DNA of 64,000 nt from an uncultured Pelagibacteraceae bacterium (GTDB lineage Bacteria; Pseudomonadota; Alphaproteobacteria; Pelagibacterales; Pelagibacteraceae): positions 44,129 through 108,128 of the forward strand of contig CACJBQ010000001.1 in the NCBI GenBank assembly GCA_902591695.1, read 5' to 3'. Positions 19,762 to 23,547 of the stretch are shown here, piece after piece (position 1 is the stretch's first letter; the number at the start of each line of letters is the position of its first letter). The notes under the pieces are model-generated. The model saw nothing but the letters and a program-made list of their open reading frames with translations. It did not search any database and was not told the DNA's origin. The position numbers and the translations under genes were made by a program.

Positions 19762-19832
19762 GATTTAAAAAAACTTATCCACAGGCTATATATTGTTTGA
19801 AATTAATATTTATGATTATAACTTAACCAGGA

Positions 19833-20867
19833 ATGAGAATTGAAGAAGAGTTAAAATTAGATTATTCAGATGTACTGTTTAGACCCAAGAGAAGTACATT
19901 AAAAAGCCGTAAAGACGTAAATCTTCTAAGAACATACAGATTTAAATACAGCAAAAATGAATGGTCAGGTATTCCAATAATGGCTGCAAATATGGATGGG
20001 GTTGGAGAACTGAGTGTTGCTGAAAAATTAAACGAATATGGAATGATAACATCTTTAACAAAACAACATGATGTTAAAAAAATTAAACAAAATAAAAATA
20101 TTAAAAAAATCTATCCTAATATCGCGCTTAGTGTTGGTATTAAAAAAGAAGATTTTCAGAATTTAGATAAAGTATTAAAAGAATTTAGTTTTTTTAAATT
20201 TATTTGTATTGATGTTGCAAACGGTTATACAGAGCATTTTACTAATTTCATAAAATCAGTAAGAGATAAATATCCTACCAAAACAATCATTGCTGGAAAT
20301 GTGGTAACAGCAGATATGACACAAGAATTAGTTTTAAGTGGAGCTGATATTGTTAAAGTTGGTATTGGACCTGGAAGTGTTTGTACGACAAGAATTCAAA
20401 CAGGAGTTGGTTACCCTCAATTAAGTGCAGTAATCGAATGTGCTGATGCAGCGCATGGACTTGGTGCGCATGTAATTGCAGATGGTGGATGCACTTGCCC
20501 TGGTGATGTTGCTAAAGGTTTTGGAGGCGGTGCAGATTTTGTAATGCTTGGTGGAATGTTGGCTGGACATGATGAAGGAAATGGTAAGATTGTTAAAGTT
20601 AAAGGAGAAAAATTTATAGAATTTTATGGATCTAGTTCTGAAGTTGCTAATAAAAAACACTATGGCGGACTATCAGATTATCGAAGTAGTGAAGGAAGAA
20701 AAGTAAGAGTAAAATATAGAGGTAAAATAAACGATACTATTTTAAATATTCTTGGTGGTGTAAGAAGTAGCTGTACCTATGTTGGTGCTCCTTCACTTAA
20801 ACAATTAAGTAAATGCACAACTTTTGTTAGAGTATCAAATCAGTTTAATGATAGTTTAATTAAATAA
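19833..20867 (+). CDS. guaC: GMP reductase
   Basis: LDYSDVLFRPKRSTLKSRKDVNL; VKVGIGPGSVCTTRIQTGVGYPQLSAVIECADAAHGLGAHVIADGGC. Confidence 0.92.
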   Translation: MRIEEELKLDYSDVLFRPKRSTLKSRKDVNLLRTYRFKYSKNEWSGIPIMAANMDGVGELSVAEKLNEYGMITSLTKQHDVKKIKQNKNIKKIYPNIALSVGIKKEDFQNLDKVLKEFSFFKFICIDVANGYTEHFTNFIKSVRDKYPTKTIIAGNVVTADMTQELVLSGADIVKVGIGPGSVCTTRIQTGVGYPQLSAVIECADAAHGLGAHVIADGGCTCPGDVAKGFGGGADFVMLGGMLAGHDEGNGKIVKVKGEKFIEFYGSSSEVANKKHYGGLSDYRSSEGRKVRVKYRGKINDTILNILGGVRSSCTYVGAPSLKQLSKCTTFVRVSNQFNDSLIK

Positions 20868-20868
20868 T

Positions 20869-21387
20869 TTATTTTTCAAACTTAAAATCTTTAATATTTG
20901 TGGTTTCATATTTCTCAAAAGGCATATGTATCCATGGAGACTCTTTTAAGTAATCTACAGAATAATCAGGTTTAAATTTTGAAGTTGACTTATGCCATAA
21001 AACTGCAGTTTTAATTTTTTCATCAAAATAAAAACCATAAAAATGTTCTAACCATTTAATACTTTTTATTAAAGTTTTTCCAGAATCAGCTAAATCATCA
21101 ACTAATAAAACATGTGACCCCAAATTTGGAGTAGTTTTTGCTAAATCTCTTGAAAAAGTAAACTGTCCTTGTTGATTTTTTATATCGTCACTATCACCAT
21201 GGTAAGACTCAACAGATAAAATAGCTAGGGGGACATTAAAAAGTCTACTAAAAATATCTCCAACTCTTAATCCACCTTTTGCAATGCAAATTATTTGATT
21301 AAACTTTAAATTATCATCATAGATTTTTTTAGCTAATTGCTCTATCTTTTTATGATAATCTTCCCAAGTTATATAAATATCTTTCAT
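20869..21387 (-). CDS. purine-type phosphoribosyltransferase (Gpt/xanthine-guanine PRTase-like)
   Basis: IICIAKGGLRVGDIFSRLFNVP; HVLLVDDLADSGKTL PRPP loop. Start reassigned to the ATG at 21387 (MKDIYITW); the ORF-track start at 21420 lies in antisense of a tRNA fragment. Confidence 0.85.
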   Translation of the reverse strand: MKDIYITWEDYHKKIEQLAKKIYDDNLKFNQIICIAKGGLRVGDIFSRLFNVPLAILSVESYHGDSDDIKNQQGQFTFSRDLAKTTPNLGSHVLLVDDLADSGKTLIKSIKWLEHFYGFYFDEKIKTAVLWHKSTSKFKPDYSVDYLKESPWIHMPFEKYETTNIKDFKFEK

Positions 21388-21393
21388 AGTTTT

Positions 21394-21440
21394 TGGTAGC
21401 GGGAAGTGGGATCGAACCACTGACCTCGGGCTTATGAGTC
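21394..21440 (-). pseudogene. 47-bp 3' fragment of a tRNA(CAT), displaced copy (att-like)
   Basis: Identical over 47 bp to 23403-23449, the 3' part (anticodon arm to CCA) of the intact tRNA; identity stops at 21441. Confidence 0.93.
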
Positions 21441-21550
21441 TATCGCCATGAACCCTACTCTACTTATCTAGAACAAATACTCCTGTAAATGCTCTCTCTC
21501 CTTTCTAGTGATATTGAATCAAATTAAAGAATCTTAGTCAAGAACCAATG

Positions 21551-21573
21551 TCATTGGAGCACTATTGGAGCAA
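21551..21573. repeat. 23-bp direct repeat, copy 1
   Basis: TCATTGGAGCACTATTGGAGCAA; contains tandem ATTGGAGCA units; identical at 23359-23381. Confidence 0.92.
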
Positions 21574-21649
21574 TAAAAATTCGAGTACTTTTGAAGTTTA
21601 TATCGTTTAAATCAATAAAGTTTAAAATTTATTTTAATAGGAGATAGAA

Positions 21650-21946
21650 ATGATTGATTTAAAAAAAAAAATTATAAAAGTTCTAATTACTTTGATTATA
21701 TCAACTACTTCATTTAGTGCATTAGCTCATGATGAGATTAATTTAAAAGGTAAATTTCAGAATATCGATGCTAATAATGATGAAACAATATCTTTAGAGG
21801 AGTTTAAAAATTTCGTACTAGAGAATAGAAGAATGAATAGATTAGAGAGAATATTTAATCGAATTGATAATAACTCTAATGGAGAAATAACAATCGAGGA
21901 ACTAGAATTATTTCAAAAAAAATTTAGAGAAAAGCAAAAATCTTAA
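21650..21946 (+). CDS. secreted/periplasmic EF-hand calcium-binding protein
   Basis: Signal peptide-like N-terminus; two EF loops DANNDETISLEE and DNNSNGEITIEE. Confidence 0.85.
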   Translation: MIDLKKKIIKVLITLIISTTSFSALAHDEINLKGKFQNIDANNDETISLEEFKNFVLENRRMNRLERIFNRIDNNSNGEITIEELELFQKKFREKQKS

Positions 21947-22022
21947 ATTTAATTAACAGATTTTGTTTAGATGTATTTATTAAATCTATTTAAATTATGG
22001 ATAATAATTTAAAAATATTATC

Positions 22023-22571
22023 ATGTCTTATGATTCAGAATCTGATTATATTTTGCTTAAAGAAATACAAAAAGGAAATCATTCTGCGTTTAGCAAACTT
22101 GTAAATATTTATACAACAAGATTTTATAGTATGGCTTATCGATATTTAAATAATCAACAGGATGCTGAAGACATAGTTCAAAAAGCATTTTTAAAATTGT
22201 GGAAAAACCCTTATTCTTGGTCACCAGGTAAAGCAAAATTTACTACATGGTTTTCACGTGTAATAATCAATTTATGCCTAGATCAGCTAAAAAAAAGAAA
22301 ACTAGTTAGCATATCTGAGAATTTTGAATTTATGGATCAATCAACACTTCAAATAGAAAAAATAATAAAGGAAGAAAGGAACATTTTAGTTCAAAAAGCT
22401 ATTCAACAACTTCCCACAAGACAAAAAACTGCTCTAATTCTTTGTTTCCTCGAAGGCTATTCAAACAAAGAAGTAGCAACTATTCTAGAAACAACTGAAA
22501 AAGCTGTACAATCATTATTGTTAAGGGCAAAAGATTTTTTAAAGAGACAAATAGATATTACAAAATTATGA
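22023..22571 (+). CDS. ECF-type RNA polymerase sigma factor
   Basis: Region 2 YRYLNNQQDAEDIVQKAFLKLWKNP and WFSRVIINLCLDQLKKRK; region 4 LPTRQKTALILCFLEGYSNKEVATILETTEKAVQSLLLRAKDFLK. Confidence 0.93.
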   Translation: MSYDSESDYILLKEIQKGNHSAFSKLVNIYTTRFYSMAYRYLNNQQDAEDIVQKAFLKLWKNPYSWSPGKAKFTTWFSRVIINLCLDQLKKRKLVSISENFEFMDQSTLQIEKIIKEERNILVQKAIQQLPTRQKTALILCFLEGYSNKEVATILETTEKAVQSLLLRAKDFLKRQIDITKL

Positions 22572-22584
22572 TAGAAAATTAAAT

Positions 22585-22917
22585 TTGATGCAAAACAAAA
22601 ATAATAAAAACATAGATGCAATACTTAACAAACTTCAAGTAAAGCCTCATAGTAAAGATCTGGAAAAAAACATTATATATAAAGCTAAACAAATGAAACA
22701 GGGCAAATCATTTGTTTTTAATATTAATTATTTAATTGAAAGTTTTTCAGACAATTTACTTTTGCCATCAGCACGTCTTAATGCAGCAATTATTCTTATA
22801 GTTGGTTTTTTTGGAGGCATTATTGTTTCTAATTTATCAATACAAAATGAACTGCAATTAATTTTCAATGATAATTTTATAACAGAATTATTTTTTGATG
22901 AGGATATATCTATATGA
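22585..22917 (+). CDS. putative single-TM anti-sigma-like protein
   Basis: 110 aa; cytoplasmic N-terminus then one TM (AAIILIVGFFGGIIVSN); follows the ECF gene. Confidence 0.55.
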   Translation: MMQNKNNKNIDAILNKLQVKPHSKDLEKNIIYKAKQMKQGKSFVFNINYLIESFSDNLLLPSARLNAAIILIVGFFGGIIVSNLSIQNELQLIFNDNFITELFFDEDISI

Positions 22918-23345
22918 ATTACACTAAATATTTCCTAACATTTTCTATAATTTTAAATTTAGTCTTAATTGGTTTTATTATTGGTAATAAATTTAATACT
23001 AATTTCTTAAAAAAAGATAAATTTACAAATAATAAAATTGTTAAATTAATTTCAAAAACAGAATTGACTGAAGATAAAAAAGAAGAATTTATAGAACGAA
23101 TTAAGAATTTAAAAATTTCAAAAAATCAAAAAAGAGAAGTTAGAAAATTGTGGCGAAATAAAATAAAGAAAATTATTGAGGCAGATGAATTCGATGAGGA
23201 CGCACTCAAGGTATTATTAGAGAAACGAGCTAGTATTTTTGCAGATAACCGAGGAGAAGCAATTGATATAATAATTGACTTGCTAAATACGCTTTCTAAA
23301 AAAGATCGTATAAGAATATCTAAATTAATTCTTAAAACAGATTGA
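22914..23345 (+). CDS. membrane-anchored periplasmic CnrX/Spy/CpxP-like sensor (heavy-metal-resistance family)
   Basis: N-terminal TM anchor, then an all-helical charged domain; overlaps the anti-sigma gene by 4 bp. Confidence 0.6.
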   Translation: MNYTKYFLTFSIILNLVLIGFIIGNKFNTNFLKKDKFTNNKIVKLISKTELTEDKKEEFIERIKNLKISKNQKREVRKLWRNKIKKIIEADEFDEDALKVLLEKRASIFADNRGEAIDIIIDLLNTLSKKDRIRISKLILKTD

Positions 23346-23358
23346 ACTTAACCAATTC

Positions 23359-23381
23359 TCATTGGAGCACTATTGGAGCAA
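23359..23381. repeat. 23-bp direct repeat, copy 2
   Basis: TCATTGGAGCACTATTGGAGCAA, identical to 21551-21573. Confidence 0.92.
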
Positions 23382-23402
23382 AATGATATCGATCGTCTAG
23401 AA

Positions 23403-23479
23403 TGGTAGCGGGAAGTGGGATCGAACCACTGACCTCGGGCTTATGAGTCCCGCGCTCTAACCAACTGAGCTACCCCGCC
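23403..23479 (-). tRNA. tRNA with CAT anticodon (probably elongator Met; Ile2 not excluded)
   Basis: GGCGGGGTAGCTCAGTTGGTTAGAGCGCGGGACTCATAAGCCCGAGGTCAGTGGTTCGATCCCACTTCCCGCTACCA folds as a cloverleaf with encoded CCA. Confidence 0.95.
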
Positions 23480-23547
23480 TTAACTGATAAATGAGTTATA
23501 ATATAAATCTTTATTGTTTCAATAAACTTTTTAAATTGAATTCTAAA

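Follow-up and report, generated by a model that had tools for sequence, protein, structure and literature searches.

In the CnrYXH system, the anti-sigma factor CnrY folds two helices around sigma2 and sigma4, and the binding of Co or Ni by CnrX is thought to switch CnrY (PMC4598750; PMC7406223). In Caulobacter, the cabp promoter was mapped by 5'-RACE, and its activity requires the adjacent ECF SigV; EGTA and acid induce cabp (PMC13171946). CaBP raises sigV expression, and in the presence of EGTA the cabp promoter hardly responds to deletion of CaBP (PMC13171946). The same study reports separate promoters and draws the membrane component of the CaBP-SigV model as a '?'. Integrative elements at tRNA-Met, termed tycheposons, have been described in Methylophilaceae (PMC10872708). 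For SAR11, a passage of PMC13198564 that cites Giovannoni 2005 gives sigma-70 and sigma-32 as the only sigma factors.

The window analyzed here, a stretch of 64,000 nucleotides from an uncultured Pelagibacteraceae bacterium, contains a cassette of four adjacent genes. We consider it probable that this cassette, whose sigma factor belongs to an alphaproteobacterial ECF subfamily, is a self-contained envelope-signaling module that reached SAR11 on a small element integrating at tRNA-Met. The best reading is that an ECF sigma factor would be paired with a class-II-like anti-sigma factor and a sensor of the CpxP/Spy-like type (PF13801), and that the EF-hand protein would serve both as target and as feedback partner, by analogy with Caulobacter CaBP-SigV. 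What is unusual is the host and the vehicle: a complete, recently acquired ECF circuit in a two-sigma lineage, carried by a 2-kb element without an integrase of its own.

The four genes and their relatives

All four genes lie on the plus strand. The first (21650..21946) encodes a secreted EF-hand protein of 98 aa, with a signal peptide ending ALA and EF loops at residues 40-51 and 73-84, and is matched by Pfam as an EF-hand pair (1.6e-12). It is followed by a gene for an ECF sigma factor of 182 aa (22023..22571), which contains regions 2 and 4 (Sigma70_r2, 2.9e-19; Sigma70_r4_2, 1.2e-15). The best NCBIfam model for this sigma factor is PRK05602, at 176 bits versus a cut-off of 208, and the closest solved structures are general ECFs, CnrH among them at 5e-26. 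The third gene (22588..22917) encodes a putative anti-sigma factor with a single transmembrane (TM) segment; its ORF runs from a TTG at 22585, the ATG at 22588 being the likelier start. The fourth (22914..23345) encodes a membrane-anchored periplasmic sensor of 143 aa, which has a predicted CpxP/Spy fold and is related to PF13801, and its ORF shares 4 nt with that of the TM protein. These coordinates confirm the initial annotation, which had described four same-strand genes in this order at 21650-23345, with the last two overlapping.

Searched as single window sequences, neither the TM protein nor the sensor matched any Pfam model. Profiles were also built from proteins of distant genomes whose genes occupy the equivalent places in the operon, with the window sequences left out. 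When run against the 121 ORFs of the window, these profiles gave significant matches to the four cassette ORFs only (ECF, 4.6e-64; sensor, 4.8e-17; EF-hand protein, 3e-9; TM protein, 1.3e-5). Because these are the sole significant matches, the four-gene set is not a product of chance, and the earlier description of a complete sigma, anti-sigma-like, and sensor-like set accompanied by an EF-hand gene stands.

Neighboring genes were taken from 34 sigma relatives in named genomes and from 30 loci of a class-level survey, and same-position neighbors in the relatives align with the window proteins. Because the loci were picked by sigma similarity, the resulting neighborhood counts are conditional on this sigma subfamily: across 46 further loci, mostly alphaproteobacterial, the ECF gene has a gene for the TM protein beside it in 42 and one for the sensor in 40, and the EF-hand gene lies immediately upstream in 22, with sigma factor, TM protein, and sensor found together in 37/46 and the complete four-gene set in 15/46. 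Each partner was found in 0/18 control loci that contain other ECFs (from other phyla and two SAR11 genomes). The co-occurrence of the four genes across genomes, which had been put forward as a check on the cassette, is thus observed. A plasmid of Phaeobacter sp. G2 has the same four genes in the same order, and three-gene forms occur in Azospirillum and Agrobacterium. The module is already known in kind, annotated and hardly studied, and its type is common in larger-genomed relatives of SAR11.

The sigma tree places the SAR11 pair inside a well-supported clade of ten (99/99), which includes Micavibrio, other alphaproteobacterial, and three gammaproteobacterial loci. The EF-hand gene is present throughout this clade. 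It has thus long belonged to the module over much of the module's range and was not added in SAR11, contrary to the initial view of a calcium-binding protein added to a Cnr-type set. The sensor gene is missing from the gammaproteobacterial relatives, suggesting that it is not always required. The nearest relatives outside SAR11 are only 44-48% identical. EF-hand residues D40, N42, D44, E51, D73, G78, E83, and E84 are invariant among 6 aligned sequences, and the ECF alignment, with the SAR11 sequence included, contains 29 invariant columns.

In the putative anti-sigma factor, the TM segment spans residues about 62-93, with its hydrophobic stretch at about 67-85. The charge is +6 ahead of it and -6 after it, which, by the positive-inside rule, corresponds to an N-in/C-out orientation. 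The AF2 model, of low confidence (pLDDT 71), consists of two short N-terminal helices followed by the membrane helix. The family matched no Pfam model, and neither a profile search of the PDB nor a fold comparison of the AF2 model gave a match, including to any known anti-sigma factor. From its topology and operon position, we infer that this product is a class-II-like anti-sigma factor. The periplasmic tail of the family is short and acidic, with the consensus DxDxSxxLF and one invariant Asp; this tail, in the C-terminal columns of the alignment, is a possible docking peptide for the sensor. In orthologs from Kordiimonadaceae and their kin (L011, L013-L015, L017, L019-L022), the cytoplasmic part is preceded by a long N-terminal extension in which a YGxDxxxWP-like motif is conserved; the SAR11 and Micavibrio forms do not have this extension.

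The AF2 model of the sensor (pLDDT 84) shows a TM helix followed by a helical hairpin. Among the aligned members of its family, 14/15 match PF13801 (Metal_resist; best 3e-23), and a search of the PDB with the family profile returns Spy as the best match (5.6e-4). Foldseek ranks CpxP, STV (VirG-like), Spy, ZraP, NccX, and CnrX as the matches to the model; that to CpxP has a probability of 1.00 and a TM score of 0.57 by target length, with weak E-values (best 0.04). The initial annotation had called this product CnrX/Spy-like and had looked to structure prediction for both membrane proteins; prediction bore out the sensor fold and gave no fold match for the TM protein. The window sensor contains 0 His, 0 Cys, and no Met after the start, so a CnrX-like His/Met site for Ni or Co is impossible in it. 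The 15 aligned sensors have no conserved Cys column, and the best His column is occupied in 8/15.

A small element at tRNA-Met

On the left, the element is bounded by a stretch of 47 bp that duplicates the tRNA-Met 3' half exactly (21394..21440, plus strand), a direct repeat that is 100% identical over 47 nt and represents a displaced att core. On the right stands the intact tRNA-Met (CAT), located with ARAGORN at 23403..23479 on the minus strand, whose 3' half (23403-23449) is the att core. The two core copies are spaced 2009 bp apart with the four genes between them, in agreement with the tRNA-island location first assigned to the cassette, and no integrase gene is present among the ORFs between them. 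Next to the displaced core lies a conserved left end (21441..21572, plus strand), which genome matches of 21441-21580 show to be common to elements with other cargo. An arm-type repeat, TCATTGGAGCACTATTGGAGCAA, occurs on the left at 21551..21573, where it comprises two TTGGAGC half-sites, and again as a direct repeat on the right at 23359..23381, about 20 bp from the tRNA end (both on the plus strand). The arm motif has 2 matches in the window versus 0.04 expected.

The empty site is seen in two complete SAR11 genomes (G013 and G015), in which apt is followed directly by tRNA-Met with a single core. In the window, by contrast, guaC and a gene for a phosphoribosyltransferase (19762-21420) separate apt from the displaced copy of the tRNA half. 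This stretch is probably an earlier insertion layer at the same hotspot.

The left end (21441-21580) was found in 12/397 Pelagibacterales genomes at 82-100% identity, with the matches lying in the neighborhood of tRNA-Met except in G190. Alternative cargo around the left end or the arm motif includes a LysE exporter (L050), a small membrane protein (L049), an arylsulfotransferase-like gene with pirin, azoreductase, and HxlR genes (L048; pirin and azoreductase are named from reading the sequences), and a TRAP transporter, likewise named from its sequence, with other genes (L068). The repeats in the integrase-less cases are 622, 993, 2009, and 3479 bp apart. Small integrase-less inserts beside tRNA-Met that share their ends and arm repeats with the ECF element and differ from it in cargo are found in L048, L049, L050, and L068-L075 (G458, G474, G232, G005, and others), and L048 and L068 contain internal arm copies, as though cargo blocks had been strung together. 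In G327, a 327-aa tyrosine integrase (L070:10037-11020, minus strand; PF00589, 2.6e-21) adjoins tRNA-Met and lies between two core repeats 6.4 kb apart, accompanied by a related arm variant, TTGGAGCATGAGTGGAGC. The G327 element is a candidate autonomous partner. We tentatively propose, in a reading that we rate just short of evenly balanced, that SAR11 harbors a family of tiny integrase-less apt/tRNA-Met elements that share the ~130 bp left end and the arm repeats, carry interchangeable cargo of one to few genes, are mobilized in trans by a G327-type integrase, and swap cargo between the arm repeats. Such a family would amount to a gene-cassette system for streamlined genomes, able to deliver a whole ECF regulatory circuit. 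A phage origin of the element ends was also considered and rejected: matches to phage records do not reach past the tRNA, viral contigs do not contain the extended left junction, and L039, the sole viral contig in which the arm motif occurs, lacks a tRNA and seems unrelated.

Because many assemblies are incomplete, the SAR11 carrier counts are lower bounds: this sigma factor occurs in 2/397 Pelagibacterales genomes, and any PF08281-type sigma factor in 5/387. The initial statement that SAR11 genomes have few sigma factors, among which an ECF would be rare, agrees with these counts. The two cassette carriers are the window genome, whose incomplete assembly (907,710 bases, 68% complete) contains one PF08281-type sigma factor, and G278 (AG-422-B22), an uncultured Pelagibacteraceae bacterium of the same genus. 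Two further PF08281 carriers, G116 and G367, have a different ECF, and the fifth belongs to another genus and has a locus that looks foreign or contaminating. In G116 (L121:851-1971), the ECF gene overlaps that for a 202-aa putative anti-sigma factor, and the membrane protein encoded downstream of the sigma factor is unlike that of the cassette; the ECF of G367 is in L122. The ECF of G116 and G367 is another rare ECF gain in SAR11.

The window and G278 differ at 6 positions in 21527-23483, and the two copies are 99.7% identical, whereas the flanking genes of the two carriers are 85-97% identical. Differences of 3-23% are seen in the left end from 21457 to 21526, in the intergenic DNA on the right, and in the neighboring genes; they number 15/522 nt in the phosphoribosyltransferase gene, 59/1035 in guaC, and 145/1000 at the start of the downstream dehydrogenase gene. 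Cargo that is near-identical within diverged flanks indicates a recent transfer in which exchange took place close to the left arm and close to the tRNA. Some SAR11 cells acquire a third, probably envelope-responsive sigma factor through mobile DNA, the unit of gain being the entire sigma/anti-sigma/sensor/EF-hand set.

Proposed signaling and competing explanations

Among the relatives of the module, GGAA-N14-CGT[AT] occurs ahead of the first gene in 8/47 leaders (L013, L014, L015, L009, L018, L080, L081, and L098) versus 0.26 in shuffles, and other spacings from 8 to 23 yield 0-1 each in the same 47 leaders. In its -35 and -10 elements and in the distance between them, the motif equals the Caulobacter cabp promoter, GGAAA-N13-CGTTCA. 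The window leader contains no GGAA-N14-CGT promoter; its best site matches 6/8 positions, a score equalled by 41% of shuffles. Nor does the window's genome contain an excess of motif sites: there are 2, whereas the reversed control gives 14. The initial annotation had suggested looking for an ECF promoter ahead of 21650 and elsewhere in the genome; no convincing one was found in either place, and autoregulation and a regulon in SAR11 are accordingly unproven.

The mechanism that we favor is built by analogy with class II anti-sigma factors and with Caulobacter. At rest, the 22588 product would clamp the ECF with its N-terminal helices in the cytoplasm, as CnrY and NepR do, and its short acidic periplasmic tail would be held by the CpxP/Spy-fold protein (22914). 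A periplasmic cue would alter the sensor, upon which the anti-sigma factor would release the ECF and the regulon would be transcribed. A transition metal is a less likely cue than envelope components that are misfolded or out of balance, or than a shift in Ca2+ or pH. In relatives, that regulon probably includes the module itself, given the motif before the first gene and the control of the EF-hand gene by SigV in Caulobacter. The exported EF-hand protein may then buffer or report periplasmic Ca2+ and feed back on the circuit. The analysis shows the gene set, its homologies and conserved order, the fold of the sensor, the promoter in relatives, the mobile setting, and the recent transfer; the protein contacts, the signal, the direction of control, and the activity in SAR11 are what we infer.

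The EF-hand protein might instead be the input itself: once loaded with Ca2+, it would dock on the sensor or on the tail of the anti-sigma factor and so report periplasmic Ca2+ directly. The position of its gene immediately upstream of the ECF in nearly half of the loci and its conserved loop ligands are consistent with such a role, as are the induction of cabp by EGTA and acid and the effect of CaBP on sigV expression (PMC13171946). However, an adjacent EF-hand gene is lacking in 24/46 loci of the same ECF subfamily, and the majority of those 24 retain the TM protein and the sensor, which argues against the EF-hand protein as the core input; the slight effect of CaBP deletion on its own promoter under EGTA points the same way (PMC13171946). 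We regard this explanation as unlikely, although of the competing ones it survives best.

Less likely still is that the cassette does nothing in SAR11 and is cargo of recent arrival, with a sigma factor that recognizes no useful promoters there. The lack of a recognizable cognate promoter ahead of the operon, the flat genome-wide count of motif sites, and the small number of carriers would all fit. Against it stand the four intact frames in both carriers, the movement of the cassette between lineages as an intact unit, and the invariance of the EF-hand ligands and of 29 ECF columns despite the low identity to the nearest outside relatives. A CnrYXH-type transition-metal sensor, in which Ni, Co, or Zn bound through His/Met would free the sigma factor and turn on metal efflux, is very improbable: the cassette encodes the same three functional kinds of protein as CnrYXH, neighborhood sensors are annotated 'periplasmic heavy metal sensor' or PF13801, and the fold matches include NccX and CnrX, but the SAR11 sensor is without the ligand residues noted above, its family conserves no Cys column and fills the best His column only in part, similarity is absent for CnrY and only marginal for CnrX, the gene order is unlike that of pMOL28 cnrYXH, and the cassette has no efflux gene.

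Comparison with described systems

The vehicle resembles tycheposons, as well as integrase-less hitcher or cis-mobilizable elements, in its tRNA-Met site, its duplication of a tRNA half, its diverse cargo, and its streamlined marine hosts. The integrase-less SAR11 cases differ in size: they span 0.6-3.5 kb between the repeats and carry one to a few cargo genes, so that most fall short of the 4-200 kb range given for tycheposons. The model of the 22914 product finds its best fold matches in the CpxP/Spy/ZraP family, but this protein is membrane-anchored and encoded with an ECF pair, rather than being soluble and part of a two-component system.

The cassette shares with CnrYXH of Cupriavidus metallidurans (pMOL28) an ECF, a single-TM anti-sigma factor (here putative) with a short cytoplasmic part that the low-confidence model of the window protein likewise shows as two helices, and a membrane-anchored helical sensor of the CpxP/Spy/CnrX fold. 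Membership was examined directly against pMOL28 CnrY, CnrX, and CnrH and rejected on sequence, gene order, and metal ligands. The TM-protein profile scores an E-value of about 100 at Z=1000 against CnrY, with an hhalign probability of 0.1%, a comparison between two families that are both short and diverged; the sensor profile reaches 0.41 at Z=1000 against CnrX, at the edge of noise; and the sigma profile matches CnrH, as it would for any ECF. The order in Cupriavidus is Y-X-H followed by efflux genes, with no EF-hand gene, in contrast to EF-hand, sigma, anti-sigma, sensor in the window. The window sensor is without metal ligands, and the TM protein shows no sequence similarity to CnrY, to which it may at most be distantly related. 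The cassette works like CnrYXH in logic and is no member of the Cnr family; of the resemblance proposed in the initial annotation, the logic is retained and the kinship is not.

Closer in arrangement is the RpoE8 operon of Azospirillum (PMC12826043), which encodes a sigma factor, a small 'hypothetical' protein, and a periplasmic heavy metal sensor in the same order. Annotated plasmid copies in Phaeobacter, Azospirillum, and Agrobacterium share this order as well, with the EF-hand gene placed first in Phaeobacter. These copies reside in large alphaproteobacterial genomes with many ECFs, unlike the SAR11 cassette, and their ECF identity to it is only about 32-39%.

The CaBP-SigV locus of Caulobacter vibrioides (CCNA_02838-02837; PMC13171946) likewise has a gene for a periplasmic EF-hand protein just ahead of an ECF gene on one strand, and its mapped cabp promoter is the motif enriched before relatives of the module. 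It differs in encoding three EF-hands, compared with two in the window, and the SAR11 copy is mobile and without the promoter motif. The TM protein and the PF13801 sensor are encoded directly downstream of the sigma factor in most relatives, which makes them candidates for the missing membrane component in Caulobacter, whose genome contains PF13801. By analogy, and with the Caulobacter locus taken as described in PMC13171946, these two proteins may form the membrane link of CaBP-SigV, and the question of that link becomes testable in Caulobacter itself.
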